64,000 bases of DNA from Polytrichum commune (taxonomy: Eukaryota; Streptophyta; Polytrichopsida; Polytrichales; Polytrichaceae). A model generated the notes under the pieces. It saw nothing but the letters and a program-made list of their open reading frames with translations, did no database searches and was not told the DNA's origin. Of the stretch, positions 4,738 to 45,590 are shown in pieces (within the stretch, counting starts at the first letter, position 1; each line of letters begins with the position of its first letter). The translations under genes and the position numbers were made by a program. Where the stretch lies: positions 7,378,501 through 7,442,500 of the forward strand of contig OX485805.1 of NCBI GenBank assembly GCA_950295325.1. The letters are read 5' to 3'.

Positions 4738-4835
4738 TGAGATACAAGTGTCAAACAGGTCCTCGCGATTGTAAATAAAATAAACTCCTGAAAGAAAAAC
4801 AAGGCCGAGCCAAAGTCATGTAGGCTCTCAAAGAA

Positions 4836-5510
4836 GAGGCCTCAGATCCGAGGCTTCCTCCATTACCTCAAACATATGCACTTAGCAAAATAAGACAAGG
4901 CGGAGAATAAAGTCAAGTAGCAAACTCATGTACACCTAACATGTAGATTTCCAAAGCAAGAACTTTCACACAAAGAGGCCTCGGATCCCAGGCCTCCTCC
5001 CCTAACTCCTACATATGCACTAAACAAAAGAAGACAAGGCCGAAAGCAAAGTCAAGTAGCCAACCATTCCATGTAAATTTCCAAACCAAGAACCTACACT
5101 AATAGGAGGCCTCGGATCCGAGGCCTCCTATGCTAGCTCCTACATATGCACTTAGCAAAACAAGACAAGGCCGAGAGCAAACTAATGTACACATCACATT
5201 TTTATTTTTCAAGCACAAACCTACACACTAAAGAGGCCTTGGATCCGAGGCCTCTTCTCATAGCTCCTACATATGCACTTAGCAAAACAAGACAAGGCCG
5301 AGAGCAAACTAATGTGCACATAACATTTTGATTTTTCAAGCACAAACCTACACTTAAAAGAGGCCTCGGATCCGAGGCCTCTTCTTCTAGCTCCTACATA
5401 TGTACTTAGCAAAACAAGAAATGGCCGAGAACAAACTACTGTACACATCACATCTTGATTTTTCAAGCACAAACCTACACACACTAAAGAGGCCTCGGAT
5501 CCGAGGCCTC
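4836..5510. repeat. Satellite-like tandem array with a perfect palindrome per unit (left part)
   Basis: Six units of about 127-139 bp. Each carries a palindrome whose 20-base core is AGGCCTCGGATCCGAGGCCT, at 4836, 4975, 5106, 5233, 5360 and 5489; the first two copies and the fourth have a base or two changed. Between palindromes the units share CTCCTACATATGCACTTAGC, AAGACAAGGCCGAGAGCAAA and TTTTTCAAGCACAAACCTAC. The array lies upstream of the minus-strand methyltransferase exons and is interrupted by the retroelement block starting at 5604. It continues at 15088. An antisense open frame through it is a by-product of the repeat. Confidence 0.93.
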
Positions 5511-5603
5511 GTCCCCTAGCTCCTGCATATGCACTTAACAAAACAAGACAAGGCCGAGAGCAAACTAATGTACACATCACATTTTTATTTTTCAAGCACA
5601 AAC

Positions 5604-10126: not shown

Positions 10127-10195
10127 CAAAACTACGGTCCACCCAACCACCAAAACCAAGGTAATAGGGGGAACAACTATCAAGGTCCACAAAAT

Positions 10196-24411: not shown

Positions 24412-25039
24412 GATTTTGGCTTGGTGTTCTTCTCCCTTGAGTGCTGCATTTTATTAAATCGTTTGGAGTCACAGCTGTAGGTTGTGGAGAGATGAAAATT
24501 GAAAAACCTTCAAGGTTGAGAGGTTGTACAGTCAGTGAAGTGCTTCAGTTGTGGGGTGCAGTTTGTAATATAATTCATCTTTTTTCTCTTGTTTTTTCTT
24601 TTACCGTTTCCAGGCTTGAGATCAGCTACACCGTCACCACTGAGGTGGCATGTTTGAGGACAATACCTATATAGAGGTTGGATTAGCAAGGTACTAATTG
24701 ACTTTGACAATAATCTCATGTTACTTCTTTGGTTAACTACGGACATTTAAGTTTGGCTACCTTTATTGAACAAATTGATGTGCATTTGTAAACTGATTTA
24801 CTAGGATCTATAGGTCATAAATGTTTATGAATACACTACAAAAACTAATGTGATCTACAATGAGATAAAAAATGCAATGATTATGTTGTTTGGTTGGTGT
24901 GTCCAAAATTCGATGGCCTCAAGTTCACGAAGAGGGGGGGGGTCGTCCATCGCGGGATGCACGTCAACTGGATCTCAACTTTTGTTTTGCTAGATCCGAC
25001 TCTAGAGAGTCCACGGCGATCAACGAAGAAGACTGTAAT

Positions 25040-28260: not shown

Positions 28261-28450
28261 TGTGTAGTGGGAGGGAAACCTCACTATTTCGGATGGTTGA
28301 GTAACGTCTAGGTGGGATAGCCGCTGGGAGGATTGGGTGAGATCCGGAAGGGATCCGGACTTGCACCGTCCGAGCTTCTGAAGAGGTCCCACCGCCCTTA
28401 GACGAACCAATCCGGAAAGTGGTATGGATCGCCCAGTTAGCTCAGATTGA
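28261..28450 (+). repeat. Tandem-repeat unit in the 3' region of the CCGGA-rich element (copy 1)
   Basis: Matches 45395-45590 at roughly 80 percent: GTGTAGTGGGA, TAACGTCTAGGT, GATCCGGAAGGGATCCGGAC, TTCTGAAGAGGTC and AATCCGGAAAGTGGTA occur in the same order in both. Without the intervening gypsy insertion the copies would lie about 280 bp apart, so this is a tandem duplication in the element's 3' part. Confidence 0.85.
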
Positions 28451-28532
28451 GTAGAGTCCAAGGTAGTGGTAGCCAGATCGATCCGTCAGAAGGAGGAGGG
28501 AAGGACCGGAACAGTTAGGATTCCGGGTCGGA

Positions 28533-28972
28533 TGTCACGTGAGTTGACATCGGGGGCAAAGTCACGTCGAATTAGGAGTAAATGGACTCCATTAGGAGTC
28601 CATGTGTGTTTGGATGAGTGATGGACTCCATTGGGAGTCCTAGTTAGTTGTTCATCCACTCCATGGATGAAATCCACATAGGATTGGGGTTATGTGGAGA
28701 GGAAGGCATCTTGACTTGCCATTGTTGTCAAGTCAAGTCTTGTGAGTGTGTTTTGAGAGAGAGAGAGCTTGTTGTTGCTATCTTATGGCTATGGTGTAGT
28801 AGATCATGAGTAAAGCCTTTGCATTCTTTCTCCATCACTTGCACTCTTGGATTCCCCCTTTGTGGAGTGAGAGATAGCTTGACTCTTGTGTGCGAATTTC
28901 AGAGTTTCTTAAGCTTTGTAAGGAGACTTCTTAGATTCTTGAGCTTGGAGAGAGAAACCCTCATACTTGACA
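28533..28972 (+). repeat. Left LTR of the methyltransferase gypsy element
   Basis: Aligns with 44838-45269 almost without difference, then departs near CCCTCAT. It is about 100 bp shorter than the right copy. It contains a 9-bp stem with a 4-base loop (ATGGACTCC, ATTA, GGAGTCCAT at 28582-28603) and a second, similar inverted repeat close behind. No clear tRNA primer site is seen just after it. Confidence 0.8.
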
Positions 28973-29585
28973 ACAATGGCTTATTTTTGCATTTTTGGTT
29001 GTATTTCTAAGCTAGAATGGCCCAGTAATAAGAGCAAATGAGTGATACAAGTGTATGAAAGCTTAGTTTGCAATTCCTTGCAACCCTCAAGAAGATTTTG
29101 AGAGAAATCTCCGCATTTCTCTTTTGGTGTCTCTTTATGTTTTCTTCAATTGTTGATGGTTGAATCTTGAGACCCAATGGAATCTCAAGTCACATCTTTC
29201 TTGCTTGCAAATTGTGGAAGCAAAGTTTAATTTAATTTTTAAAAAAACACAAAAAAAAAATCCGACTTGTTTTTAATTTTTTATTGAGCTCCGGACGGAT
29301 CCGGAGCTCACCGGACCCTCTGGGAGCTTCTGGAGCTCCTGGAGCTCCTGCTCTGCATCGTGTGTGGGCCGGGGGCGGGCGGCGTCAGCCGGGCCCACGG
29401 GGGCGGGCGGCGCCAGCCTGGCCCCAGGTAAGCCCCTTCCCCTTCCCTTTTTTTTATTTTTTTAGTTTTAGTTTTAGTTTTAGTTTTTTAGTTTTAGTTT
29501 TATTTTTTTTTCAATAAAAACAATTATTTTTATTTTCACATTTTTACTTTCACCTTTCAAATTTGGCATTTGACTCTCACAAACT

Positions 29586-29960
29586 TTGAGGTTCAAATTT
29601 GGGGGCATACTAGCTCCGATTGGAGTGAAATTTGAGCCTATCTTGTGTGAAATTTGCCAAGGAATCCAATGGTGTAATTGGATTGTTGATTGGAATTCAA
29701 AATCATTGCTGAAATTATTAATTTCAACACTGATTTTTGTTTTTGGGAGCAAATTAACTCCGAACGGAGTGAATTTGAGCCTATCTTGTGTGAAATTTGC
29801 CAAGGAATCCAATGGTGTAATTGGATTGTTGATTGGAATTCTAAATCATTGCTGAAATCTTCCTAGGAGTCCATTGGTGCAATTAGTTTGTTGATTGGAA
29901 TCCATAATCACCTTGGAAATTCACATTTTCAACGCTGATTTTTTAATTTTAATTACCATT
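29586..29960 (+). repeat. Tandem repeats in the leader of the methyltransferase element
   Basis: A unit of about 165 bp containing GAATTTGAGCCTATCTTGTG, AATCCAATGGTGTAATTGGA and GATTGGAATTC is present twice almost perfectly, with a third partial copy from about 29870. Upstream lie a GC-rich patch (29330-29430, with two copies of a GGGCGGGCGGCG motif) and TTTTAG microrepeats (29460-29510). Untranslated leader; no coding sense. Confidence 0.85.
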
Positions 29961-30103
29961 CTCAAACCTTTGCACAATTTTGGAATTCTGGGGGCCTAAA
30001 TAAATACTTGGCATTTGGCAAGGGATTGCCATTTAGATAGCCCGCAACAGGTGCAGGTTGCCATTACCTTGTAGATAGTTGCAGGTACTCAAGTGATTAT
30101 TTT

Positions 30104-33100
30104 ATGGTGCAAACTAGGAGCCGATATTATCGATCTCCATCACCAGATTACTTGGAGGACGTGCATACCACAAATCTTGAGCCAGAGGTAGATACCAACG
30201 AGGCTTTTGAGCCTATTTCGGCGTTGGACACTACTAGTAGGCTTCGGATTTGGAGTGTCGGCACGTTCGACGAAATGGAGGACGATCGCCACAATTCAGT
30301 GCGTGATCGGTTTTCAGGTCGAGCTGGGGGCATTTCCTTGCCCGATTGGAAACTCCGGTTTCGTACCTGGATTAAGGAGAAACGTCAAAGGTCTTCCAAT
30401 TTCAATGATTGGTATGCCTTTGAATTTCTGCCTCAGCATTTGGAGTATGAGGCACTCCAAACTTATGAACGCTGGACAGAGGGTCATCAGCGACAACTTC
30501 GGGAGGTGGAGCAGTATTGGGAGGCTCGGGTTGAGCTTATTTCAGCCCTTAAAGATGGGGCTATTGCCACCTTAGCTCCACCCACCTTAAAGGAGGAGGA
30601 TCCAGCGGAGGAGTCTAAGGACCAAGAACTGGCACTTGGGCCAATAGTGGCTGGCAGTAGCACGGCTACCCTTTCACGGATGGCATGTGCTACACAGGCA
30701 GCATTGACGGTTGTTGATCCACCACCTCCATTTAATCCCCTTGCTGAATTTGTCGCACATTTGGAGGTGGAGTATGGTGGGTTTCGGCGAGACCAGATGC
30801 AGCGCATTCAGGATTTCCGCCGAGAGAAGGATGACACTCCACGGACCATGTATACGCGACTCACACGCTTTGCTGTTGAGTCGGGAGGTGTTTTTGCTGA
30901 GAGTCAGCTTGTCAAAATCTTTTTGTCTAAGATTGACAAGCGGCTACTTGAGTTGGCATCACCTCGGATTATCCTCGACTATGAAGGCAGAGCTACGCTT
31001 GCACAAGCGTTTGCCGTGGTTGAGAGATGTGATCGGGCTCTCTGTCAACACGATGCCATAGACATGGTATCTTGGATGACAGAGAGTACGAAATCAAGAA
31101 GAATTGTCACAGCTACTAGTAGTTTAGCTGAGACTCAACCCGTTAAGGAGCAAAAGATTTTGCATTGTTGGGGTTGTGGAGAAGCTGGTCATTCGAAGAA
31201 TGATCCCAATTGTCCTAAGAAGAAGAAAACTCAGCCTTTGGGAAAATTAAAACAAAAGATAGAATCAGTAAAGGCAGGGGACAATTCTAAGAAGAGACAA
31301 TTGAAATGTAACCATTGTGGTGGCACTAATCACGATGTGGATCATTGTTTCCAACTTCATCCTGAGATGCGGCCTGCCAGTTATGTCACTGGAAAGTCTC
31401 CAAGGGAGCAGAGTCTTGAGGCTAAGGTGGCAGAGCTTGAGCAAAAGCTCAAATCTTCTGCATCTTTTGCTCAAATTTCTGAGCCGCATGCGGGTGGTGG
31501 CACCTCGGGTTCGGACATGTATATGTTTGGGGCATTTGGAGAGGTGGTGGCTGCGGCTTCTACTCGATCACAAACATTGGCAAATGCGGTGGCTTCTACA
31601 AGTGGTGGTAGTAACGAGGTGTCACATCCTCGCCATGCCGGACCAGCGGATCAAGTTGGTCAAGCACGTTTACCTCTCTCATTTGGATTGGTAGACACCA
31701 CTGTTGTTGGGGCTAAAAACCATGTACCTTTGAGAGATGGGGATTCCATCTCGAAGGATGTTACGCAGGCATTGGCATATAAAATTCTCCATATGCCAAT
31801 TTTCTCGGGTTCGGAGTTGATGGCTCCGGATTTCAAGCCTGCTGGAGTTTTCCATTTAGCTGGGAAAATGTTGGAAAGTAAGGTGGATTTGCCATCCCTT
31901 CAAGTATCCCAAGCTGTTGTTGACGTACCTGTGGCTGAGGAGGTGGAGGACTTAGCCAATTTACGAGCGAGCCTTGCGGATGCAGCGATCATTGTTTTTG
32001 GTAAGCAAACTAATATTCCTCCATCAACAATTTCAGCAGTGGACACGTCATTTTCGCATTATGCAGCGGGAGCGGCATATCTTGCAGATATTTCTGCAAG
32101 GCCTGCTCGCGAGCGGCATAATTTGCAACCTGGAGTTGTACGGCTGATGAACGACAAATCTTTGTTTGTCGTTTCACGCGCGGATATGCCTACTATTCGT
32201 GCTACACCACTGAGAGTTATGATGGATTTCGGTGCTCAACCGGTTATGATTGGCAAAGGACTTGCTGACAGTCTTGGATTGACGCCAACAAACTTAGATC
32301 CTTGTCCATTCACAATTGTGACTTCAGTAGGGGACACTGAACGTGCAACAGGCTACACCAAGGCACCTCTACGTTTGATTTTTAATGTGGGGGCAGGACC
32401 TACCTACACTCATTTGTCAATGAAATGTGTTGTTACTAATGCTAACAACTATGATATACTTGTTGGTCAGCAAGCTCTTTATCCACTTGGCTTTGGTTTG
32501 GATAATTGGACTGAAGAGACATGGATTAGATCGGGATGGTCTTCTGGAGATGGCAGGAAGGTATTTATTCCTGTAGCATTTGCAGCTACTTCTATGACTA
32601 TGGTTGCGGAGGCAATATTTGTTTGCAGCGGTTCAGTTGCGGATTTGCCTTGTGCTCCAGTTTTGTTGGAGGAAACATTTGACTACGCTTGTAATGCAGC
32701 AGAACAACAAATTTTGCCATCTTTACAAATTTCTGCTCGACATTTCAAGGATCCACCTCCACCATGGCGTACTCCTAAGGAGTTATCCGACCATTGTCGA
32801 CACATTGTAGCGGATTTGGGGCTTGGAGAGACACCTCCAACGTCATCCTCATTTTATTTTGCTCAACCCATTCGTTGGCAACCACCACCTGAAGGTATTG
32901 TCATTGTAGAAATCTTTGGGGGCATCGGCACAGGTTTGGCGGTAGTGTTGGAGGCTGGGATTACAGTTAAGCGATATATTCATGTGGATAATGGATATGC
33001 AGCCAACAGAGCCGTCCGACACCACATTCAACAATTGTTGTTGAGGTACCCCGCACAATTGTCAGCCACTGCCATTCTTGGATGTTGTGGTCAACTTCCT

Positions 33101-33868
33101 CAAGATGCCACTATGATTAGTGATGAGGATTTGAGAAGATTGGGCCACGTGGATTTAATTATTGCAGGATGGCCTTGTCAAGGCCATTCACGGGCAAGCA
33201 CTGGCCAGGGTTTGGATGATCCTAGGTCTAGTTTGTTCGCGGATTTAATGCGATTGACACAATGGTGGTTTACCCACCAATCAACTCCGCCAGGGTACAT
33301 TTTCGAAAATGTGCCATTATTGGGTAATACACGGCACAAAGTGGTGAAGGATGGTGAGTACATTAACCAAATTCTGGGTACTCCAACATTTCTAGATGCT
33401 GCATCCTTGGGATCCTTTGCTCATCGGCCTCGTTGGTTTTGGACCAATTTGGTATCACCTCAGGTGCTTTCAGCGGCGATCGCCCGCATTCCCCGCCTTA
33501 TGAATCGCAAGGTGGATGACATTTTGGATGATCATCGTGTTTCCGTGGCAGTTTCAAAGGATGACACCTTGCCATTTGCATTAATTAACAAGGTGGGAAT
33601 TCCGAGAGATGCACTACCTACTTTTGTGACATATCCAAGCTCTTTCGCATTTCGATCTCGTGGACCAGGCATGATTTGGGATTCAAAATCCCAAACTTAT
33701 GATGAGCCTACAACAGATGAGCGGGAACGCGCCATGGGTTTTCTTACAGGCACCACGGCTGCTTATGGGCTTCAGGAAGGTCAGAGACGTTTCCTATTGG
33801 GACAAGCTATGGATCTCAATAGCATTGTGTGGATAATTGGAATTTGTCTTTGTCGCAACCCTTGCTAG
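30104..33868 (+). CDS. gag-protease-cytosine-5 DNA methyltransferase polyprotein
   Basis: A 1254-codon frame. Residues about 100-320 are gag-like. Zinc knuckles follow at about 350-420 (CWGCGEAGH; CNHCGGTNHDVDHC). A retroviral-type aspartic protease with MMDFGAQPVMI lies near 705. Residues about 931-1254 are a cytosine-5 DNA methyltransferase in canonical motif order: motif I VEIFGGIGTG (S-adenosylmethionine binding), motif IV GWPCQG with the catalytic Cys at 1025, motif VI FENV at about 1067-1070, motif VIII AHRPRWFWTNL, and C-terminal RERAMGF and LLGQAMDLN. AHRPRWFW and the end pattern are closest to DNMT3; PCQ is more like DNMT1/CMT. Motif order excludes DRM. The domain could methylate element DNA or nearby chromatin. 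A nested element has inserted at the extreme 3' end of this frame. Confidence 0.92.
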   Translation: MVQTRSRYYRSPSPDYLEDVHTTNLEPEVDTNEAFEPISALDTTSRLRIWSVGTFDEMEDDRHNSVRDRFSGRAGGISLPDWKLRFRTWIKEKRQRSSNFNDWYAFEFLPQHLEYEALQTYERWTEGHQRQLREVEQYWEARVELISALKDGAIATLAPPTLKEEDPAEESKDQELALGPIVAGSSTATLSRMACATQAALTVVDPPPPFNPLAEFVAHLEVEYGGFRRDQMQRIQDFRREKDDTPRTMYTRLTRFAVESGGVFAESQLVKIFLSKIDKRLLELASPRIILDYEGRATLAQAFAVVERCDRALCQHDAIDMVSWMTESTKSRRIVTATSSLAETQPVKEQKILHCWGCGEAGHSKNDPNCPKKKKTQPLGKLKQKIESVKAGDNSKKRQLKCNHCGGTNHDVDHCFQLHPEMRPASYVTGKSPREQSLEAKVAELEQKLKSSASFAQISEPHAGGGTSGSDMYMFGAFGEVVAAASTRSQTLANAVASTSGGSNEVSHPRHAGPADQVGQARLPLSFGLVDTTVVGAKNHVPLRDGDSISKDVTQALAYKILHMPIFSGSELMAPDFKPAGVFHLAGKMLESKVDLPSLQVSQAVVDVPVAEEVEDLANLRASLADAAIIVFGKQTNIPPSTISAVDTSFSHYAAGAAYLADISARPARERHNLQPGVVRLMNDKSLFVVSRADMPTIRATPLRVMMDFGAQPVMIGKGLADSLGLTPTNLDPCPFTIVTSVGDTERATGYTKAPLRLIFNVGAGPTYTHLSMKCVVTNANNYDILVGQQALYPLGFGLDNWTEETWIRSGWSSGDGRKVFIPVAFAATSMTMVAEAIFVCSGSVADLPCAPVLLEETFDYACNAAEQQILPSLQISARHFKDPPPPWRTPKELSDHCRHIVADLGLGETPPTSSSFYFAQPIRWQPPPEGIVIVEIFGGIGTGLAVVLEAGITVKRYIHVDNGYAANRAVRHHIQQLLLRYPAQLSATAILGCCGQLPQDATMISDEDLRRLGHVDLIIAGWPCQGHSRASTGQGLDDPRSSLFADLMRLTQWWFTHQSTPPGYIFENVPLLGNTRHKVVKDGEYINQILGTPTFLDAASLGSFAHRPRWFWTNLVSPQVLSAAIARIPRLMNRKVDDILDDHRVSVAVSKDDTLPFALINKVGIPRDALPTFVTYPSSFAFRSRGPGMIWDSKSQTYDEPTTDERERAMGFLTGTTAAYGLQEGQRRFLLGQAMDLNSIVWIIGICLCRNPC

Positions 33869-34823
33869 GTCCCTTAACAATCTTGCCAATTTTCGTTTCT
33901 AGCAAAGGTTACGAGCGCTAACCATTCGCATTCCGCCATGCTAATGGTTAGCTCCTCTTACCCCGGACCAATAGTTCATAGGAGGGAACCAACCCTCCTA
34001 CTTTGCTTTCGGGACTCACCCCTTAATTGGTAACCCATTTCCCCAATGTGGACTTCCATCCATGGAAGTCCAATCCTATGTTGATCATCGCATTGCCGGA
34101 GCAACACTACAACAACCCGAAGCATACTAGGCAACTATGGCCTCACAATAGGCCAAAGCCCATGGAGGCCTTGCCGTTTGGCCTCGGGTGGGTGAGGCCA
34201 CACCACCTCACCCATATAAGCCTCTAGGACTCTACACGGAGCCCCTACCCCACCGCCAACCAACCTCTTGTCTCTCTACCAAGAGTTGGGGCCAAGTGGA
34301 CATTTTCCTTTAGCTGCTGGGCCTAGAACCCCCCCAGCAGCTTCAGACCATCATAACTTCCTTGTATGATGTCTGATCATAACAACCAACCACTCCATCC
34401 TCATCTACGCTTCACGTAGATGCCGATGGACTCCTCACTTGCCCCATTCGGGCAAGTCTTGAGGCAGTTATGCGTGTTTGAACCTTGGCAGTCCCGGGAA
34501 TCACTCCCAGGCACTGCTGTACCAGGGCGCTGTCCCGGGACAGCGCCCCACTCAAATGGCCATAACTCCTAGCTCACACCTCCGATTGAGGTGTTCTTGA
34601 GCTTTCTAGAATCACCACGCCATGAGCTACGCATAGCTCATGGCCTTACCCTTGTGCCTCCTAGTCTTCGTGGGTGGGAGGCGTTCCCAACGCCCGGGGC
34701 CCTCACCCACACTAGGATCACTTGGGCCCTCTCACCAACGGCGCCACAAGTCCCGGGTGTCACTCCGGGGTCCCCCTTGTGCCCATGGTGTTTCGGGCAC
34801 TCCTCATGGAGAGGTGCGCGACA
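33851..34823 (-). repeat. 3' LTR of the nested gypsy element
   Basis: TG...CA bounded, 973 bp, nearly identical to 39931-40903. It contains a CATAACTT-rich section and inverted motifs such as GGGCGCTGTCCC/GGGACAGCGCCC. Open frames in it, on either strand, are repeat shadows. Confidence 0.95.
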
Positions 34824-36102
34824 CTCACCCCCACCAAACGGAGTCGATGCCCTCATCGACTATACTCGTAGTCGGCACACCAATTCTCAAGTTGCCATCC
34901 TCTATGGTGCGGCATTGTGTTTACCTTAGGGCGCGACCCCCACAATGCATCTTCAAATTTGGCATAGTCCCAAAGGTGTCGTTACTAGGTGGTCCGTTAG
35001 CGACCTTGGAACTCCTCCAAGGACCTAACCTATACTAGACCCACCTACTTCGGGACTCACATGGGTTGCCCCTCTTTTGGGGCCTCCCCCCCCCCGTTAG
35101 GCTCCACTAGCCTAACGTGACACATCTAGGCGAGACCTCAACGCTTCCACTAAGTTGTCTCGGTTGCAACTCCGAGATGGCTTTCCATTGTTAAGCCACG
35201 CCTCGATCGCACGGGGGTGATGCCAAGTCCCGCCCGACTCGGTTCCCACTTTGCTCTTTCGAGACATGGGTTCATGACTCCCATGCGCCAACTCTCGTTA
35301 GCTCGCGGGTAGCACTTTTATGAGCACGCGCCATCACCTTGCCCCCGCCCGGACAAGCCCACAACTAAGAAGTTTCTTGGTTTTATCCAAGGCCCCTCCA
35401 AGCCATGGCCCCCAATTACTCGGCTTACCCAACCTAGTTTGGCATATCTATTCCCCCTCTTCCATTAACCAAGCACAAGTACAAGACTAGGACCTCATCT
35501 CATACTTTTCTCTTTGCACCACTAAAGTTTGGACTTTATTCCCTCAAGCCAAAGAACAAGTTCATGTTGTGGAGTAATTAACCTCGAAGCTAAGTGTGCT
35601 ACTAGCGTCTCTCCCCCACTAAAGGAGATTGATGTCCTCATCAATGCCTACGCTTCTTTTTATTGGAATCCTTAGCCTTAGTTTCTTCAAAGTGCTTCAC
35701 CTATTCATTGGTGTTCACCATGTCTCTTGCCGCCACCCAAGCGGTTTCTTTTTCATGGTATCCTCACCATTTCACCAAGTACTCTTTTGTACATTTTTTT
35801 TCATTTTCACTTGGGCTTCCTACACTTGAGGGTGCCCTCCTACCTCATGTTCCAAATGACCTCCATAAGGTCGGGAGGTGGCCTAATCACTTGCTTGTGA
35901 TCGGGCCACAAGGTGTCGTCCTAAAATGACTTTCGTATTGAGACATGAAATTTCGGATGCACTTTGATCTCCGGCGGTAATTCCAACTTATACATGTCCT
36001 TGAACACTTGTTCCACAATGGAAAACGAAGCTCCAATTTTGGACATGAACTTTTGAAGTAAGGCCTTTGGGCAAGGTGAAGTTGTCCACATTCAACAACA
36101 CC

Positions 36103-37088
36103 TTATTGGCCCACCTCATACTCCACTTCGCGTCTTCCGGCATTGATTTGCACTCCGTAGCACCTTCGGGCTTTCTCCACCAACAACTTGGTCATCTCCA
36201 AGACTTGTTTACCATCCTTGGCCAAGTCCTCACCATCTTGGTTGAACTCTAGTGTTGAATGTGCCCCCTCGAGAGCTAGGTTAATAGGTTGGAGCGCATC
36301 CACTCCATAAGCCACCACGAAAGACCACCCCTTGGTAGCCAAGTGCGTGGCTACATTGCAATTACACTCCGCTCGACCCACATAGACCGCCCAATCTCCT
36401 TGGTCCGCCCCCACCAAGTTCCTCAAGTATTGCTTCAAGACTACATTCACATGCTCCGCTTTCCCATTCATTTGGGAATGCAAGGCCGTGGTAAACCTTA
36501 GTTTCATCCGACCTCCTTAGAGAATTGCATTGAAAATGCACTTGTGAACTTTGGATCTTGATCCCACACAATCACTCTTGGCAACCCGTGGTGCCTCAAC
36601 CATCCTTTGAGAAAAGGCTATGCGGTCTCCAACGCGGTGGCGGTTCCCACAATTGGCACCATGTGTGCCAACTTGGCAAACCGCTCTACCATCAACAAGA
36701 TGGCATCATACCCATGTGACTCCGACAAACTTGTGATCAAGTCCATGCACATACTATGCCATGGCCCCGACGGGATAGGCAACGGTTGCAAGAAACCGCC
36801 TTGCTTTTGGTAAGAGGGTCAGTTCACTTGGCACTTCATCCAAGCCTTCACAAAGTGGGTTATATCCTTCTTTATGCACCGCCAATGGTACCCCCATGAC
36901 ACCATTCTATGGCGGCTTTTTCTTTCTCCTCTATGGCCGGCAATAGGACTATCACATTCTTCCTTCAAAACCGATAGCCTCAACTTGCCTTGTGGCACAT
37001 ACACCTGACTTTGTTTACACTTGAACAATCCGTCCACCAACTTAACTTCTTTGAGCACCTTGCTCTTGCGAAGCTCACCTAAAAACAT
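36103..37088 (-). mobile_element. Integrase remnants of the nested element
   Basis: Minus-strand pieces include a zinc-binding-like segment (LSVLKEECDSPIAGHRG and ITHFVKAWMKCQ) at about 36819-37088, and a catalytic-core-like segment (TALHSQMNGKAEHVNVVLKQ) with a gypsy post-core region at 36103-36507. Enough to place the family as Ty3/gypsy. Fossil; broken. Confidence 0.75.
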
Positions 37089-37489
37089 TTGTGCTTTGGG
37101 GTAGTAAATTTACCCCTCCCGTATCTTGCATCACAAGTTTCCTTCGCCGGCACACATTAGCCACAAGGTTTGGATGGTTCTCATTGCTTGGAACTCTTCC
37201 CGTCTACTTAGCGCATCCGGCACCACATTTCCACGGTCCGGTTTGTGGACCAAATCCACCTTCATAAGCGCCAAGCTATCATGCCAACGCAATGACTTGG
37301 CGCTCACTTGCGCTTGTATGTCAAAATACTTTTAGGACACATTGTCCTTGTAGACCTTTGCTTTGTGCGACCCCAACTAGTGTCGCCACATCTTCAAGCA
37401 ATGCACTACGGCAAAGAAGTTCTTTGTCATGAGTTGGTTGTCTTCTTTGACAACCATCGAGCCTCAAGCCCCCATATGCAAAGGCCATC

Positions 37490-38110
37490 CATCTTACATT
37501 AACAATCCATCATTGGCAAAGTTACTCGCCCCCGTATGCACCTCAAAAGGTTTGTCAAACTCCATGAACTTGAGCACGGGCGGTGAAGAGAACTTGCTCT
37601 TAAGCTTCCCAAAGACTTGGTGACAAGGCTAGTCCCACTCTTGGGATAGCCATTTCTTTCACAAGTCGGACAACCATCGAGCTTCATGCTCTCATATGCA
37701 ATGGCCATCCATCTTGCATTAGCATCCGCCAATGGTAAAGTCACTCGCCCCCCGTATGCACCTCAAAAGGTTTTTTCAAGCTCCGCGAACTTGAACACGG
37801 GTGGTAAAGAGGAACTTGGTCTTAAGCTCCTCAAAGACTTGGTGGCAAGGCTCATCCCACTCTTGGGATAGCCATTTCTTGCACAAGTTGGACAAGCTTC
37901 TACAACCATGGAGTTTAATGCTCCTATAAGCAATGGTTATCCATCTTGGATCAACATCCGCCAATGGTGAAGTCCTTCGCCTTCATGTGCACCTCAACAT
38001 GCTCATGAAAACCCGGAAACTTAACCACATGTTGTGAAGAGAAGTTACTCTTGAGCTCCCCAAAGGCTTGGTGACAAGGCTCATCCCACTCTTGGGATAG
38101 CCATTTTTTC
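37490..38110 (-). repeat. Tandem repeats in the RNase H-side region of the nested element
   Basis: About three copies of a 190- to 240-bp unit containing CAAGGCTCATCCCACTCTTG, GATAGCCATTTCTT and CGTATGCACCTCAAAAGGTT. The unit seems to derive from pol coding sequence that was duplicated in place. Confidence 0.75.
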
Positions 38111-38474
38111 CAACATGTTGACTAAGGTTCTAGCAACCTTAGAAAAACCATGAATGAAGTGGTGGTAGTAGTTGGCTAGGCCAACAAATGACCTAAGCCC
38201 TTGTCTTGAGTCAAGGGCCAATTCTCTTCTTGGATTGCCTTGACATTTTTCATGTTCGTCCACCAACTTCCTTTGTCACCACATACCTCAAGAACTCAAT
38301 CTCTCGTTGAGCAAAGTTATTTTTCACTTCTTGGCGGTAATTGTTTTTGGGCAACACATTGGTGAATACATCCTTGTATCTCACCAACATCCCACCAATG
38401 TGGTTTGGAGGAGGCCCATCTTTCCTAGCCTCCCCATACATTCCTTGGAGTTGCTCCAATTGAACCAGGACCAT
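38081..38474 (-). mobile_element. Reverse transcriptase remnants of the nested element
   Basis: Minus-strand fragments show VRYKDVFTNVLP, typical just ahead of a gypsy reverse transcriptase, and LRSFVGLANYYHHFIHGFSK, the connection to RNase H. The polymerase core between them was not recognised. Fossil. Confidence 0.7.
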
Positions 38475-38949
38475 TATGTTTTCTATTTTTCATTTGGTTC
38501 ATTAAGACCAAATTCAACTTGGGTCCTCCTACCATAGGAGTCCTTGTCAATTTGAACTTCAATTCTTTGCCATTATGACCCATCATAATGCACCGCAAGC
38601 TCACCGGCTTGCACCTCATATATATCATGTGAGTTTCAAAGTAGGCGGCCTTCACAATGACATGCATTTCATCTATTTCACATGGTGTGAAATTTTGACA
38701 AAAATCCAATGTCCCACATTGAAAGGTTACATGCATCGCGGCCTCCTTTGTCTCATGCGGTTCATCCTTTCCAAACCGCACCTTGGTGGGCTTGCTTTCT
38801 CTATCAATCGGCAAGCCCCAACTTCCTTGTGAATTTTGGGCTCAAGAAGGAGTGGTAGCCTCTTTGTCAACACATGAGACATTTCTTCCATTCATTGAGC
38901 CTCAAGGTACAAAAGATTTGGCCTTGGCTTAAGGCTTCTAGCCTTGCCC

Positions 38950-39270
38950 ACAATGCCATCGTCTTACATTCGGTCCTCGGCAACTTGGCTTGGCTTGGTC
39001 CGCAAAGCCAACTTTAAACATTTTGTCCGCGGGACAAATTGGTTTGGTGCCACAAAACCAATTTCTAATAGTTTGTCCGCAAAACAAACATGTTTTGCCT
39101 TGGTAGCACAAAGCCACCTTCCCACACTCCGTCCGCGGCACGAACATGAATTGCCTTGGTAGGACAAACCCACCTCCCAACATTCCGTCCGCGGCACAAG
39201 TATGATTTGCTTTGGAAGCATAAATCCACCTTTCAACATTCCGTCCGCGGCACCAACATGTTTTCCCTAA
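38950..39270 (-). repeat. 60-bp tandem repeats with cysteine-rich reading
   Basis: About five units built on CCGTCCGCGGCACGAACATG, TTGCCTTGGTAGCACAAAGC and CCACCTTCCCACACT. In one minus-strand frame each unit supplies one or two Cys within a basic context (for example CRGRNVERW, CFADKLLE). It lies in the gag-to-pol interval of the nested element. Whether the peptide was ever made is unknown. Confidence 0.75.
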
Positions 39271-39908
39271 GTAAATTGGACCAAACAATTTGCACTCATT
39301 TCTTTGGGACCTACTTTGGCTAAAGCCACTTGTGGTGATGCGCCGCCAAACTTCTCTTTGGGACCATCGGCTTCAATGCTCTTGCAAACTTGATGGTCCC
39401 CACCATGTCCTCAAGAAGCCTTAGGGACTTAAACAAGGCATCCACCACCCACTTTTAAAACCCCACCTAAAGGATGCATTTCTTAGAAAGCTCGTCCGTT
39501 TTAGGTGTATCCTTCATTTGTGCGTTTGAATAGCGCACATAGGCCTTAAGAGGCCCCGGGTGCCTCATTAGCACCAAATTCATTCCAACATCAATACCTT
39601 CCAAGCATTTCGAATTGGAATTTCAATCCAACATTAATGCCCTCCAAGGTTTTGGGTGCATTCGGTATTCTAGCCCCCGAATACTTTTCGAGATTTGCGG
39701 GAGCCTTTTCAAAGCATTCCTCCATTTTCCTCACCGAATCCACCCTCGTGCCCACCATTGTCATTAGAATCAATGGTATGGTCAAAATCCACTTGCACAT
39801 GATCCTTGTTCCAATTTGAGCCTCACAACCTTTTGGAAACCCCGGGCTCACCATCATAACCCGCATTTTTGATAGCCATGTCTCCCTCAAAGTGCTAGCT
39901 CAAATATT

Positions 39909-39928
39909 GGAACCCTGCTCTGATACCA
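39909..39928 (-). promoter_or_regulatory. Primer-binding site (initiator Met-tRNA) of the nested element
   Basis: The minus strand reads TGGTATCAGAGCAGGGTTCC, complementary to the 3' end of plant initiator methionine tRNA, two bases inside the LTR. This is the usual primer for Ty3/gypsy reverse transcription and sets the orientation. Confidence 0.93.
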
Positions 39929-39930
39929 AG

Positions 39931-40903
39931 TGTCGCAACCCTTGCTAGGTCCCTTAACAATCTTGCCAATTTTCGTTTCTAGCAAAGGTTACGAGCGCTA
40001 ACCATTCGCATTCCGCCATGCTAATGGTTAGCTCCTCTTACCCCGGACCAATAGTTCATAGGAGGGAACCAACCCTCCTACTTTGCTTTCGGGACTCACC
40101 CCTTAATTGGTAACCCATTTCCCCAATGTGGACTTCCATCCATGGAAGTCCAATCCTATGTTGATCATCGCATTGCCGGAGCAACACTACAACAACCCGA
40201 AGCATACTAGGCAACTATGGCCTCACAATAGGCCAAAGCCCATGGAGGCCTTGCCGTTTGGCCTCGGGTGGGTGAGGCCACACCACCTCACCCATATAAG
40301 CCTCTAGGACTCTACACGGAGCCCCTACCCCACCGCCAACCAACCTCTTGTCTCTCTACCAAGAGTTGGGGCCAAGTGGACATTTTCCTTTAGCTGCTGG
40401 GCCTAGAACCCCCCCAGCAGCTTCAGACCATCATAACTTCCTTGTATGATGTCTGATCATAACAACCAACCACTCCATCCTCATCTACGCTTCACGTAGA
40501 TGCCGATGGACTCCTCACTTGCCCCATTCGGGCAAGTCTTGAGGAAGTTATGCGTGTTTGAACCTTGGCAGTCCCGGGAATCACTCCCAGGCACTGCTGT
40601 ACCAGGGCGCTGTCCCGGGACAGCGCCCCACTCAAATGGCCATAACTCCTAGCTCACACCTCCGATTGAGGTGTTCTTGAGCTTTCTAGAATCACCACGC
40701 CATGAGCTACGCATAGCTCATGGCCTTACCCTTGTGCCTCCTAGTCTTCGTGGGTGGGAGGCGTTCCCAACGCCCGGGGCCCTCACCCACACTAGGATCA
40801 CTTGGGCCCTCTCACCAACGGCGCCACAAGTCCCGGGTGTCACTCCGGGGTCCCCCTTGTGCCCATGGTGTTTCGGGCACTCCTCATGGAGAGGTGCGCG
40901 ACA
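39931..40903 (-). repeat. 5' LTR of the nested gypsy element
   Basis: 973 bp, near-identical partner of 33851-34823. On the minus strand it is followed two bases later by the methionine-tRNA primer site, marking it as the 5' LTR. Confidence 0.95.
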
Positions 40904-40974
40904 GTCTTGCTGCTCAACAACGTATGGATGACCAATTGCTTCCTCTGAGGGCATAGTACAATGGTCAGGGGGCA

Positions 40975-41259
40975 ATGGAGCCGCAATCCAAGGATCACAT
41001 GGAGGTCAATGACACTGAGGGATTATTTCCTTTGAAACTTCATGTTGCGGAAGAGCTTCGAGCCCAACGTGTTTTTCCGGCTTTGGCCCAAGATTTTGGA
41101 AAGTTGGAGGCCCACAAAATGTTTCCACTTCTATTTCTTGGTGACACTTCATATGTGGGTAGCTATTTAGCTACACAAACTGATTGTAGTGGAGAGGATA
41201 CGCATTTGGATTCAAGTACAGATGATGGGGGCAAAGGTGTTGCCCTCTCCACGGACTAG
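40975..41259 (+). mobile_element. Short linker frame between the methyltransferase and pol frames
   Basis: 94 codons beginning MEPQSKDHMEVNDTEGLF, acidic, with no domain I recognise. It belongs to the outer gypsy element and lies between the nested insertion and the reverse transcriptase frame. Confidence 0.5.
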
Positions 41260-41271
41260 CAATCACAGGCT

Positions 41272-44253
41272 ATGCTGGCACCAAGTGGCAATCCTTCTAT
41301 GAAGAAGGAAACCACGGAGTTTGACGATTGGCCAATTGAAGTGGGGCCAAAACTTACTGGTGTCGAAGCACGAAAGGTACGGGCATTTATTCGCTCTTAC
41401 CGTAATTGTTTTGCCTTTAGTCTTCATGATCTTGAAGGATATAAAGGTAAACCTGTTCGTATTCAACTCGAGGACGACCATCCTATTTTCAGTCGGCCGT
41501 ACAGACTTAGTACATCTGACAGGTTGGGTGTTCAAACTCGATGTCAAGAATTATTGGCAGCTGAATTGATTGAACTCTCCAATGGAGAGTATGCTTGTGC
41601 CACGGTTATGCCTTCAAAGAAAGATATCTTTGGCAACTGGACGGAAAAACGGATGTGTGGTGATTATCGTCCAGTCAACCGCAAGACCAAATCGGATCGA
41701 TATCCAATGCCGATGCCAGAGGAGTTGTTTGATGCACTGGGATTTTCTAGAATCTTCAGCACTCTGGATTTGAGGTCTGGTTATCATCAATTACCTTTGT
41801 TGTTGGGTGATCGGGTGAAGACGGCATTTTGGGGAATTGATAAAGATGGCAATGATCAACTTTATCATTGGAAATTTTTGCCATTTGGTCTCAAGAATGC
41901 ACCAGCTGAATTTCAGCGGGTGATGGACCAATTATTGGCTGGTTTGTCGTTTGCTAGATGTTACATTGATGATGTTATCATCTTTAGTAATAGTCCACAA
42001 GATCATGTGAGACATTTGCAAGCGGTATTTGAACGACTTCAACGGTGGGGATTCCGTTTACATCATGGAAAATGTAAGTTTTTCCATGATCAATTGCCCT
42101 ATTTAGGCCACATGATTGTTCATGGCGGTCTTGGTGTGCAACAGGCGAAGGTGGATGCTTTGCACAAAATTCCCGCACCTAGTGATGTACCACGGCTTCG
42201 TGCATTTCTAGGATTGGCAAATTATTATAGGAGGTTTGTCAAAAACTTTAGTTTGATTGCCAAACCTCTTACCATTCTCACGGGGAAAGACCAACCATGG
42301 ATTTGGAGTCGGGAACAACAACATGCATTTGATACATTGAAGCAGAGGCTCGGTTCAGCGCCAGTGCTTCGACGCCCGGATGTGTCTAGAGCTTTTCAAT
42401 TGCACACGGATTGGAGTGCAGTGGGATTGGGAGCGGTATTGACACAGAAAGATGAAGAAGGAAAGGAATATGTGGTGGCTTATGCATCTAGAAGCAATAA
42501 TAGTGCTGAATCTAATTATTCTTCTTATGAAGGCGAGGCCTTGGCGGCCGTTTGGGCCATTGCACATTTTCGACCTTATTTGTATGGGCAAAAGTTTACT
42601 TTGGTGACTGATCATCAGCCTTTAAAATGGCTTATGGAATCAGATAAGCTCACCGGGAAACTTGCTAGGTGGGCATTGTTACTTCAGGAATATGATTTTG
42701 AAGTTGTTCACCGAGCAAGAATTGCCAACTTGGATGCAGACGGATTGTCTCGCAATCCAAGTCTTTCAGATGAGGATTTAACTGGAGCCAGGTGGCATGG
42801 AGATTGTGATCGTGAGGCAGTGCCGGGTTGGCATGCTGCCACATATCTCACAATGATGTCGGGATTGGCTGCTGAGATCCTTGTGGAAGAACAAGATGAG
42901 GAGGTTGATAAATCTCTCGTTGTTAGTGATGTGATGGAAGACCAGGCGATCTTGCACAAACTTCAACAAGGGATATTTCCTCTTGGACTATCTGCTATGG
43001 AGCGAGATAGAGTTAGTCACCGGATAACAAGGTTTCGTTGGGCAAACAGCTTGTTATTTCGTGTGTGGCCAAACGGAACGAGGCGCATCGTTCCAAGGCC
43101 AGATCAAAGAGCTTCTTTGGTGCGGCAAGTGCACGAGGAGCTTGGACATTTTGGAGTGCGAAGGACGCACTCTATGTTGCGCAACCAATATTGGTGGACT
43201 GGTATGTATCAACAGGTTGCCACTTATATTTCTAGGTGTGAAGTATGTGACCGGGTCAGGTCAAGTTTTAATACTTTATCACCTCAACTTCAGTCTTTAC
43301 CTATTATGGGCTTGGGATATCGTTGGTCTTTGGATTTTGCCGGACCGCTTACTATCACTCCACGAGGGGCAAAGTATGTACTTGTGATGGTGGAGCATTT
43401 TAGTAAGTGGATTGAACTCGTGGCTCTTCCGCAAAATTCCTCAGAATTGGCGGCTATGGCATTTCTTGATCGAGTTTTGGCACGGTTTGGAGCACCTGCA
43501 GAGGTGTTGACGGATCAAGGGAGAGAATTTTTTGGATCTTTCGAAGCTTTGTGTACCAAGGCTTTGATTGATCATCGGACAACTTCCAGAGATCACCCTG
43601 AGGCAGATGGCTTAGCTGAACGAGTTGTTCAGACGGTTAAGCGCGGTTTGCAGAAGTATGGATTGCTTCATGGCAACCATCGCGATTGGGACTTGATGTT
43701 ACCATGGATAGCAATGGGTTATCGTTTCAACAGGCAAGCATCTTTGGCATCCTATAGTCCTTACCAACTCTTGTATGGACGGGAACCAATTTTATCTAGC
43801 TCGGTGCGAGAGAAATTGGCTCCCGTGGTAAACTTGGATGATCCAGATGTTTGGGCTCAATGTCTTCATGACCGAGCAGCGTTCTTCCAAAAGGCCATGC
43901 CTATGGCTATGGATAACTTAAATATTGCTCAACATCGTGATACATTACGGTATGCCCGGATCCGCAGTGGAGCTTATCGACCTCAGGTTCGTAGATTTTC
44001 CAAAGGGAATTATGTTTACTTGCAACGGGAGGCGCCTACGACATTGGATGTCAAGGCTGGGCGCACGATTTTGCGAGTAAAAGATGTCTTGCCAAGTGGT
44101 ATATTATTGCTTGAAGGCAAGGATGGACGGGAATGTTGTGAGCATTCAAAGAATTGTGCTCCATGTCACCTTCCCATCGACGGCTCTGTGCATCCCGAGT
44201 TGGCGGTTGTACCACAGGGTCTGCCTTGTTATGTTTGTGGAGAGAAGAAATGA
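41272..44253 (+). CDS. Reverse transcriptase-RNase H-integrase (pol) of the methyltransferase gypsy element
   Basis: A 993-codon frame. The reverse transcriptase spans about residues 85-330, with MCGDYRPVNRKT, LPFGLKNAPAEFQRVMDQLL and the YIDD catalytic box at 231, then FLGLANYYRRFVKNFS. RNase H, about 375-490, has LHTDWSAVGLGAVLTQ, YEGEALAAVWA and VTDHQPLKWLM. The integrase zinc-binding domain near 620-680 has HEELGHFGVRRTH and SRCEVCDRV. The integrase core, about 690-860, has LDFAGPL, VLTDQGREFFGSF and DHPEADGLAERVVQTVKRG. After the core come a Gly/Pro-containing tail and then Cys-rich sequence leading to the PHD-like finger. Gene order RT-RNase H-integrase marks Ty3/gypsy. Activity would copy the element RNA in particles and insert the DNA in the nucleus. 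Confidence 0.95.
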   Translation: MLAPSGNPSMKKETTEFDDWPIEVGPKLTGVEARKVRAFIRSYRNCFAFSLHDLEGYKGKPVRIQLEDDHPIFSRPYRLSTSDRLGVQTRCQELLAAELIELSNGEYACATVMPSKKDIFGNWTEKRMCGDYRPVNRKTKSDRYPMPMPEELFDALGFSRIFSTLDLRSGYHQLPLLLGDRVKTAFWGIDKDGNDQLYHWKFLPFGLKNAPAEFQRVMDQLLAGLSFARCYIDDVIIFSNSPQDHVRHLQAVFERLQRWGFRLHHGKCKFFHDQLPYLGHMIVHGGLGVQQAKVDALHKIPAPSDVPRLRAFLGLANYYRRFVKNFSLIAKPLTILTGKDQPWIWSREQQHAFDTLKQRLGSAPVLRRPDVSRAFQLHTDWSAVGLGAVLTQKDEEGKEYVVAYASRSNNSAESNYSSYEGEALAAVWAIAHFRPYLYGQKFTLVTDHQPLKWLMESDKLTGKLARWALLLQEYDFEVVHRARIANLDADGLSRNPSLSDEDLTGARWHGDCDREAVPGWHAATYLTMMSGLAAEILVEEQDEEVDKSLVVSDVMEDQAILHKLQQGIFPLGLSAMERDRVSHRITRFRWANSLLFRVWPNGTRRIVPRPDQRASLVRQVHEELGHFGVRRTHSMLRNQYWWTGMYQQVATYISRCEVCDRVRSSFNTLSPQLQSLPIMGLGYRWSLDFAGPLTITPRGAKYVLVMVEHFSKWIELVALPQNSSELAAMAFLDRVLARFGAPAEVLTDQGREFFGSFEALCTKALIDHRTTSRDHPEADGLAERVVQTVKRGLQKYGLLHGNHRDWDLMLPWIAMGYRFNRQASLASYSPYQLLYGREPILSSSVREKLAPVVNLDDPDVWAQCLHDRAAFFQKAMPMAMDNLNIAQHRDTLRYARIRSGAYRPQVRRFSKGNYVYLQREAPTTLDVKAGRTILRVKDVLPSGILLLEGKDGRECCEHSKNCAPCHLPIDGSVHPELAVVPQGLPCYVCGEKK

Positions 44254-44403
44254 GCTGCAACAATGTTATTGTGCGACCATTGTCAACGTGGATGGCACAT
44301 GGCATGTTTGACACCTCCCCTTTTGACTCTTCCTTCTGGCAATTGGGTTTGTCCTCGTTGTCGGAAAGCCTCCCACGCCATGGCCGTTAATGGTGATGAT
44401 TGA
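44205..44403 (+). mobile_element. PHD-type zinc finger at the end of the pol region
   Basis: The spacing of Cys and His follows a PHD finger: CYVCGEK, then LLCDHCQRGWHMACLTPP, then GNWVCPRCRK. The Trp two residues before the last Cys pair and the CD-x-C-x4-WH-x2-C core are diagnostic. PHD fingers bind histone H3 tails. The position after integrase is where other gypsy lineages carry a chromodomain, so a targeting role is a reasonable inference. Confidence 0.8.
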
Positions 44404-44727
44404 GGACTTTGTGGATGTTTGCCATATGTTTTAGTGGTGAAGTTGTTATCTAGTTGGTCGGAAGTTTTATGGGATTGAAAATCACATTGGAAGAATTATC
44501 AAGAATTCAACATAAATTGTTGAAGGCGATTAAGGATGGGGCTCACATTGCACTCAGTCCTACAGTTCTTGGGTTACTTCCTCAACCATGAATTTAATTC
44601 CTTAGATTACCACTACCCAATTGGATATGTACAGATGTAGCAACAACTTCATCATGTTCAACAACTCTACCGATGAGTGTGTTTGTTCCTAGCCGATTGG
44701 AGGGGCTCCTTATCTGCTAGGGGGGCA

Positions 44728-44835
44728 CTTGAAGAGGTAGTTGTTTAGCATATTAGTTTGCTATGTTTATTTTGCTAATTGATGTTGATGACGACACTCG
44801 ATCTGTTGTGTTTAACGATCTTAGTTTACATGACA
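44728..44835 (+). repeat. 108-bp repeat ahead of the right LTR (copy 1)
   Basis: Near-identical to 45270-45377. It begins CTTGAAGAGGTAGTTG directly after a G-rich polypurine tract (44720-44726) and ends TTTACATGACA. The two copies flank the 44836-45269 segment. The junction reads CATGACA-GA-TGTCACG, like two LTR ends meeting. Confidence 0.85.
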
Positions 44836-44837
44836 GA

Positions 44838-45377
44838 TGTCACGTGAGTTGACATCGGGGGCTAAGTCACGTCGAATTAGGAGTAAATGGACTCCATTAG
44901 GAGTCCATGTGTGTTTGGATGAGTGATGGACTCCATTGGGAGTCCTAGTTAGTTGTTCATCCACTCCATGGATGAAATCCACATAGGATTGGGGTTATGT
45001 GGAGAGGAAGGCATCTTGACTTGCCATTGTTGTCAAGTCAAGTCTTGTGAGTGTGTTTTGAGAGAGAGAGAGCTTGTTGTTGCTATCTTATGGCTATGGT
45101 GTAGTAGATCATGAGTAAAGCCTTTGCATTCTTTCTCCATCACTTGCACTCTTGGATTCCCCCTTTGTGGAGTGAGAGATAGCTTGACTCTTGTGTGCGA
45201 ATTTCAGAGTTTCTTAAGCTTTGTAAGGAGACTTCTTAGATTCTTGAGCTTGGAGAGAGAAACCCTCATCTTGAAGATGTAGTTGTTTAGCATATTAGTT
45301 TGCTATGTTTATTTTGCTAATTGATGTTGATGACGACACTCGATCTGTTGTGTTTAACGATCTTAGTTTACATGACA
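44838..45377 (+). repeat. Right LTR of the methyltransferase gypsy element
   Basis: 540 bp from TGTCACGTGAG to TTACATGACA, followed by the CGGA duplication. Its first 432 bp match the left LTR with about one difference; its last 108 bp are absent from the left LTR but repeat the sequence just upstream. Confidence 0.8.
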
Positions 45378-45394
45378 CGGAGGCCATCTCCGGA

Positions 45395-45590
45395 GTGTAG
45401 TGGGAAGGGGACCTCATTGTTCCGGATGTCTGGGTAACGTCTAGGTAAGATAGCCGTGGGGAAGACTGGGTAAAGATCCGGAAGGGATCCGGACTTGCGC
45501 CAATCTGATCTTCTGAAGAGGTCTCACCGCTTTTGGACGGGATAATCCGGAAAGTGGTACGAATCACCCACTTATCCCGTTGAGTCATAT
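45395..45590 (+). repeat. Tandem-repeat unit of the CCGGA-rich element (copy 2)
   Basis: Counterpart of 28261-28450 at about 80 percent identity. The remaining 45590-46059 is CCGGA-rich, without a readable gene, ending GTGTTCCCACA at the MULE junction. Confidence 0.85.

Follow-up and report, generated by a model that had tools for sequence, protein, structure and literature searches.

A broken Ty3/Gypsy retrotransposon of the moss Polytrichum commune with a DNMT3-like methyltransferase and split terminal repeats

Introduction

What is a cytosine-5 DNA methyltransferase doing in the Gag reading frame of a moss retrotransposon, and how did the repeats at the ends of that retrotransposon come to be split? 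The question is raised by open reading frame 1 (ORF1) in a 64,000-nucleotide stretch of Polytrichum commune (assembly GCA_950295325.1, contig OX485805.1, positions 7,378,501 to 7,442,500), called here the window, whose coordinates are used throughout. ORF1 is the first half of a Ty3/Gypsy element of about 9.8 kb that lies at 28533-45377 and is interrupted by a younger element. We read the locus as a broken copy from an old family of the green lineage whose members carry a DNMT3-like methyltransferase of their own; the element would be self-primed, insert from a circle and methylate its own complementary DNA (cDNA) or circle. The probability of this reading was put at roughly 0.6.

The methyltransferase domain of ORF1

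The features of ORF1 are as follows.

30104..33850, forward strand: ORF1, Gag-protease-methyltransferase, the element's own part (reading of the frame, domain search)
31166..31348, forward strand: two CCHC-type zinc knuckles (motif reading)
32219..32254, forward strand: protease active-site region with DFGAQP, D-S/T-G in relatives (motif reading)
32876..33850, forward strand: C5-cytosine methyltransferase domain (Pfam, family alignment, profile against structures)

The reading frame 30104-33868 encodes 1254 amino acids. Its stop at 33868 is foreign to the element, because a nested long terminal repeat (LTR) element that begins at 33851 encodes the residues after 1249. A sequence-only reading of the window had proposed the order Gag, zinc knuckles, protease and methyltransferase, and this order was borne out by the knuckles, a weak retropepsin-like stretch and a methylase match. 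Knuckle 2 (residues 402-415) was canonical and knuckle 1 (residues 355-370) had a longer last spacing. The retropepsin-like stretch matched Pfam weakly, below the cut-off (E 0.006 and 0.014). The search with the C-5 methylase model PF00145, suggested with that reading, gave a significant match (E 3.6e-10, 40.2 bits, cut-off 22) confined to residues 1001-1080; the family alignment spanned the entire domain beyond this stretch. Motifs I, IV (PCQ), VI (ENV), VIII (HRPR) and IX/X were all found and in order, as had been claimed. The predicted structure of the domain had a mean pLDDT (predicted local distance difference test) of 77.

A profile of ten family members was compared with solved structures. 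DNMT3A/B/C ranked first (best 6e-20), followed by DRM (2e-10), HaeIII (1e-7), HhaI and Dnmt2 (about 5e-4). The window enzyme reads PCQ in motif IV and lacks the DNMT3 hallmark PCN, so that the earlier description, DNMT3-like with PCQ for PCN, was accurate.

Relatives of the element

A homologue search returned 28 homologues at 33-73% identity, ten of them from Marchantia polymorpha and one from Sphagnum fallax. A wider search gave 158 matches, and the best 120 included Calypogeia fissa, Sphagnum troendelagicum, Marchantia paleacea, Riccia sorocarpa and M. polymorpha. The nearest named relatives among the matches listed were thus liverworts and Sphagnum, in line with the probable land plant of the sequence-only reading. 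Five genome-contig loci were matched and one of them, L007, was used. L007, a contig of 9285 bases, carries an entire element, and its two ends share 127 bases, as may be expected of a repeated element closing on itself in assembly; alternatively, the contig may be a real circle. L007 is plant-like and sits in a cyanobacterial metagenome bin; protein P0030 (74% identical) comes from a bacterial bin too, and both are likely mis-binned.

One copy only was present within the window, which would suit a one-off host gene fragment lying beside unrelated retrotransposon pieces. This candidate was rejected with near certainty: L007 holds the whole element, and zinc knuckles and methyltransferase were joined in one polypeptide in 20 further database proteins. 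The view that the locus belongs to an element with many relatives was thereby upheld.

A separate search, with the integrase end and PHD finger of L007, gave 214 matches. Among the best 120, 53 matched the methyltransferase family profile (290 or more positions in 33, 100-289 in 13 and fewer in 7). Two types were distinguished. In the bryophyte type the methyltransferase lies before the reverse transcriptase (RT); in the algal type it lies between ribonuclease H (RNase H) and integrase, with the same integrase-PHD end. Among the same best 120 matches, the order RT, RNase H, methyltransferase, integrase, PHD was found in 20, the same order without RT in 4, and methyltransferase, integrase and PHD only in 27, one of which was a broken Marchantia gene model. 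Marchantia protein P0154 held pieces of the methyltransferase domain only, its gene model running straight into the integrase. With the family profile, Volvox reticuliferus (P0179) scored 85 bits, Tetrabaena socialis (P0195) 113 bits and Pleodorina (P0258) weakly; the listed proteins of Haematococcus (P0161) and Volvox africanus (P0269) gave no match to this profile.

A search of viral contigs gave no relative of the window reading frame, of the L007 Pol or of the algal-type alignment. The methyltransferase alignment matched six viral-contig loci at 35-53% over short stretches. Four of these were translated (L001, L002, L004 and L005), and L002 and L005 entered the first tree.

Constraint on the methyltransferase

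In a profile-aligned count, the motif IV cysteine was kept in 76 of the 80 domains with 290 or more profile positions covered. Motif IV read PCQ in 57 of the 80, ECQ in 13, ECN in 2 and otherwise in 8; PCQ was found in 44 of the 48 bryophyte-type and mixed rows. ENT in place of ENV was read in 11 of the 32 algal-type rows (P0150 and up). Identity between window and L007 was 69% in the methyltransferase, 45-47% in two linkers, 88% in RT and 95% in the integrase. Over motifs I-VIII the non-synonymous distance (dN) was 0.18 and the synonymous distance (dS) 3.1, figures that are rough because synonymous sites are saturated.

Origin of the methyltransferase

The careful tree contained 37 rows: 31 element domains, five phage enzymes and one DNMT3A fragment. 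Twenty-nine of the element rows cover at least 290 profile positions, and P0179 and P0221 fewer. It omits the two viral-contig enzymes, an M.HhaI fragment and 32 element rows, and host DNMT3, CMT, MET1 and Klebsormidium nitens sequences stood outside the sample of all trees. The 31 element domains formed one clade (100/100) against the DNMT3A fragment and the five phage enzymes. Next outside it came one phage enzyme, ph_Vib049 (85/35), and then DNMT3A (95/86). The algal-type rows grouped (17 rows, 100/93) and the bryophyte-type rows did not; a root between algal-type rows and the rest was not rejected (p 0.41). In a quick tree of 71 rows the bryophyte-type rows grouped (27 rows, 94), and the two viral-contig enzymes were placed within the elements at the tip of a very long branch.

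The single clade of the 31 sampled domains favours one old capture. Separate captures by bryophyte-type and algal-type Gypsy elements would fit the different positions of the methyltransferase and the long inner branches, and independent capture in the K. nitens lineage is the published view (PMC5890265). We consider separate captures rather unlikely, given the 100/100 clade (in a sample that does not include host DNMT3s), the integrase-PHD end common to both types, and the rejection of a bryophyte-type plus DNMT3A grouping (approximately unbiased test, p 0.003, the group having been picked after an earlier tree).

The source of the captured enzyme is a different matter. Against the family profile six phage enzymes scored 47-62 bits, little below the DNMT3A fragment at 67 bits, so that 'DNMT3-like' is a fair label of likeness rather than of origin. 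PCQ is also the reading of bacterial and phage enzymes, and ph_Vib049 stood nearer the elements than DNMT3A did, weakly. A bacterial or phage source in place of a host DNMT3 is somewhat unlikely all the same, since DNMT3 structures top the profile ranking and DNMT3A lay nearer than all but one of the five phage enzymes, though long branches meet at that node.

Layout and state of the element

The second half of the element and the insertion that interrupts it comprise the following features.

33851..40903, reverse strand: nested younger LTR element (self-comparison; orientation from a primer site beside 39931)
40909..41256, forward strand: C-terminal tail of ORF1, with one TAG at 40954 (sequence reading)
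41257..41265, forward strand: in-frame UAG-CAA-UCA between ORF1 and Pol (the same 9 nt at the homologous L007 stop)
41272..44253, forward strand: Pol reading frame with RT, RNase H and integrase (Pfam)
44227..44361, forward strand: PHD finger at the C-terminal end of the integrase, interrupted by TGA at 44251 (intact in L007)

The order RT, RNase H, integrase (rve) that defines Ty3/Gypsy elements was found in the Pol of the window and in L007. Two plain LTRs at the ends were not found; the left end carries one repeat, A1, and the right end three, B1-A2-B2. In the L007 Pol the last domain is an intact PHD finger (PF00628, 4e-10), and a chromodomain after the integrase had no Pfam match, the PHD finger standing in its place.

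The nested element is about 7 kb long, is flanked on both sides by the 5-bp duplication GTCTT and cuts ORF1 just behind the methyltransferase. Its LTRs (33851-34823 and 39931-40903) differ at 1 position in 973. Its orientation was taken from the primer site beside 39931, which is presumably of the tRNA-Met type. An inverted copy resembling a solo LTR of this nested element (96%) lies at 3214-4189.

The stop at 41257 is in frame with both ORF1 and Pol, and L007 likewise has a single TAG followed by CAATCA. UAG-CAR-YYA is the readthrough context of the tobacco mosaic type. The case for a readthrough signal is its position and conservation, not its rarity. A similar Ser/Thr-rich tail was seen by eye at about equal distance past the methyltransferase in 12 of 13 related ORF1 proteins (P0008 left out), a comparison on proteins alone in which a stop codon and a contig end look the same. 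The methyltransferase does lie between protease and RT, as the sequence-only reading had placed it; a direct fusion to RT was not borne out, the in-frame UAG and the 7-kb nested element intervening.

The window copy is broken and non-functional as it stands. Among 270 sequences, 28 motifs matched D-[STF]-GA-[QE]P; 27 of them were D-S/T-G, and the window alone had DFGAQP.

Self-priming

Two short segments bear on the start of reverse transcription.

28718..28733, forward strand: self-primer segment at the inferred RNA 5' end (all 16 nt complementary to the primer binding site)
28965..28980, forward strand: primer binding site, immediately following A1 (paired with 28718-28733 by RNA fold prediction)

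In predicted RNA folds the 5' end paired with the primer site in the window (z -4.1, 0 of 200 shuffles as good) and in L007 (z -3.5, 2 of 200). In L007 the complement is 13 nt long, keeps this order and lies 358 bases past the start of A; two of its pairs are compensatory relative to the window. The RNA would start near 28718, fold back onto its own primer binding site and prime reverse transcription as in Tf1, where the RNA 5' end likewise pairs with the primer site of the same RNA. No tRNA genes were found in the window.

Split repeats and insertion

The ends of the element are arranged as follows.

28529..28532: target site duplication CGGA, left copy (read directly)
28533..28964, forward strand: A1, left split repeat, 432 bp, starting TGTCA (1 substitution against A2)
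44718..44727, forward strand: polypurine tract TAGGGGGGCA (similar tract in L007)
44728..44835, forward strand: B1, 108 bp, ending TGACA (self-comparison)
44836..44837: 2-nt spacer of the inverted-repeat junction TGACA-GA-TGTCA (CGACA-GC-TGTCA in L007)
44838..45269, forward strand: A2, 432 bp (self-comparison)
45270..45377, forward strand: B2, 108 bp, right end of the element (1 substitution against B1)
45378..45381: target site duplication CGGA, right copy (read directly)

Self-comparison of the window gave the repeat order A1-coding-B1-A2-B2. The A copies differ at 1 of 432 positions and the B copies at 1 of 108; with 2 differences in 540, the copy is young, as had been supposed. The element begins with TGTCA and ends with TGACA, the two motifs that face each other across the inner B1|A2 junction. 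At the A2|B2 seam, the base before the primer site is joined exactly to the base after the polypurine tract. The flanks at 28262-28439 and 45395-45574 are 81% alike, as if the element had entered a tandem repeat.

Standard reverse transcription from the primer site and polypurine tract would yield a cDNA with B-A LTRs. Its ends would then join seamlessly into a two-LTR circle, in which the A2|B2 seam is the U5 end joined to the U3 start. If the integrase cut this circle where B and A meet as inverted repeats, and inserted it with a 4-bp duplication, the order A1-coding-B1-A2-B2 would follow. A 4-bp duplication, at this one locus, is within the 4 or 5 bp of Ty3/Gypsy elements. Together with the conserved integrase it indicates that insertion was probably by a DDE integrase, and the odd ends suggest insertion from a circle.

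DIRS elements have their repeats in this order, and the authors of the K. nitens study draw the same parallel for their element (PMC5890265). By a DIRS/PAT route the ends would be bridged on the internal B1-A2 and the circle recombined in, the rve integrase not being the inserting enzyme. Four observations make this route improbable. Pfam matched no tyrosine recombinase in L007 or in the ORF1 and Pol of the window element; the integrase core ranks first in conservation among 13 segments compared between window and L007; the A2|B2 seam lies exactly at the primer site and polypurine tract; and CGGA is duplicated here, where DIRS insertion is said to leave no duplication (PMC3266345). Insertion of a circle by the element's own integrase is therefore preferred, and the split repeats, odd for a DDE-integrase element, gain a simple and testable account.

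Role of the methyltransferase

The methyltransferase lies before the UAG and so would be made with every Gag. Its most likely action is to methylate the cDNA or circle of the element ahead of insertion, and a new copy would then already be marked in chromatin, and the PHD finger may help to select chromatin. The observed/expected ratio of CpG was 0.25 in A1 and 0.63 in the window, a measure that does not separate methylation by the element from methylation by the host.

Production with Gag would suit a passive or RNA-directed part of Gag-Pol, acting as RNA chaperone or in RNA methylation. The nearest published element enzyme is without demonstrated DNA methylation, and volvocine copies keep the domain though its catalytic motifs are lost. 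Retention of the catalytic cysteine in 76 of the 80 longer domains and the CG methylation in yeast by the DNMT3 of a dinoflagellate DIRS element (PMC5890265) speak against such a role, to which we give little credence.

Several points weigh against the reading of a self-primed, circle-inserted element that methylates its own DNA. The K. nitens enzyme was inactive in yeast, a result its authors call inconclusive (PMC5890265). In the 32 algal-type rows ECQ is as frequent as PCQ (13 each, 6 other). P0179 and P0195 are degenerate, and neither has PCQ or ENV or matches PF00145 at 0.001; P0195 lacks the catalytic cysteine and ENV, and P0179 lacks the motif I-IV part and ENV. The window copy itself carries the DFGAQP protease site, TAG at 40954, TGA at 44251 and the nested insertion. 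As motifs, neither UAG-CAR-YYA (2 occurrences, expectation 3.45) nor GACA-NN-TGTC (2 occurrences, expectation 1.16) shows enrichment in the window. L007 holds A once, so that the end of its A was placed by the primer site. One integrated copy with flanks was seen; the duplication, to be expected by chance once in 256, and the circle model therefore have a single locus and the L007 junction behind them. Were the circle opened at the other B|A junction, the form A-B-A-coding-B would result, which is compatible with the model and was not seen.

A bolder version can be offered tentatively, as doubtful rather than probable: a DDE integrase that ignores the ends made by reverse transcription and opens the two-LTR circle at the inverted-repeat junction, in an element whose methyltransferase, perhaps acting on the circle, has been carried since before the bryophyte/chlorophyte split (or crossed between the two) and is decaying in some algal hosts.

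Other features of the window

A hAT-type transposase reading frame with a C17orf113-like zinc finger lies at 24890-27160. The Gag frame of another Gypsy element and a protease-like frame, the latter below the Pfam cut-off, lie at 8447-12529. At 47111-48616 a reading frame had a weak SWIM zinc finger match below the cut-off and is perhaps MULE-like. Degenerate tandem repeats were found at 4834-5603 and 37449-38138, the second within the nested element.

Comparison with known systems

Methyltransferase retrotransposons were formerly known from dinoflagellates and one charophyte, and the Gypsy case was ascribed to a capture in the charophyte lineage. DNMT-bearing Gypsy elements with DIRS-like repeats are already known as a kind. 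KnitGypsy-Dnmt3 of K. nitens was published with Gypsy domains, DIRS-like repeats and constraint and was taken as an independent capture (PMC5890265); a 2025 survey restates that streptophyte and dinoflagellate retrotransposons hold DNMT3 (PMC12344493). The window element is like KnitGypsy-Dnmt3 in its Gypsy polyprotein with a Dnmt3-like domain, its DIRS-like repeats and its purifying selection. It differs, as far as the published description of KnitGypsy-Dnmt3 goes, in its hosts and in the self-primer, UAG, PHD finger and seams described here (PMC5890265). No row named K. nitens occurred among the matches listed (28 homologues, the best 120 of 158 and the best 120 of 214). Algal-type Gypsy elements carry a homologous domain, which makes a capture confined to the lineage of K. 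nitens less likely.

The relatives in liverworts and Sphagnum, the homologous domain of algal-type elements, the self-complementary primer site with compensatory changes and the circle-like split repeats are new. Our literature search, thin on subscription journals, found no published account of bryophyte-type or algal-type members, PHD finger, self-primer or seams. Plain LTRs are found in Tf1/Sushi and plant Tcn1 chromoviruses. Self-primed reverse transcription is shared with these chromoviruses (PMC6317226), from which the window element differs by its PHD finger and by having no chromodomain match in Pfam.

SymbioDIRS-Dnmt3 and SymbioLINE-Dnmt are likewise retrotransposons with cytosine methyltransferases, and SymbioDIRS-Dnmt3 is also reported in two domain orders; the former is a DIRS element with a tyrosine recombinase and the latter a LINE, whereas the window element is a Gypsy element with an rve integrase (PMC5890265). 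DIRS/PAT elements have terminal repeats that imply a circular intermediate, as proposed here, but they are described as using a tyrosine recombinase and leaving no target duplication (PMC3266345), in contrast to the CGGA duplication and the absence of such a Pfam match in the window element. The proposed opening of the circle is much like the use of abutted ends by the transposases of IS circles.

Since the family spans liverworts, Sphagnum and algal-type elements, a parasite may long have kept a host-type silencing enzyme, or passed it between hosts. M. polymorpha, which holds relatives of the element, is a laboratory plant in which the role of the enzyme can be asked.

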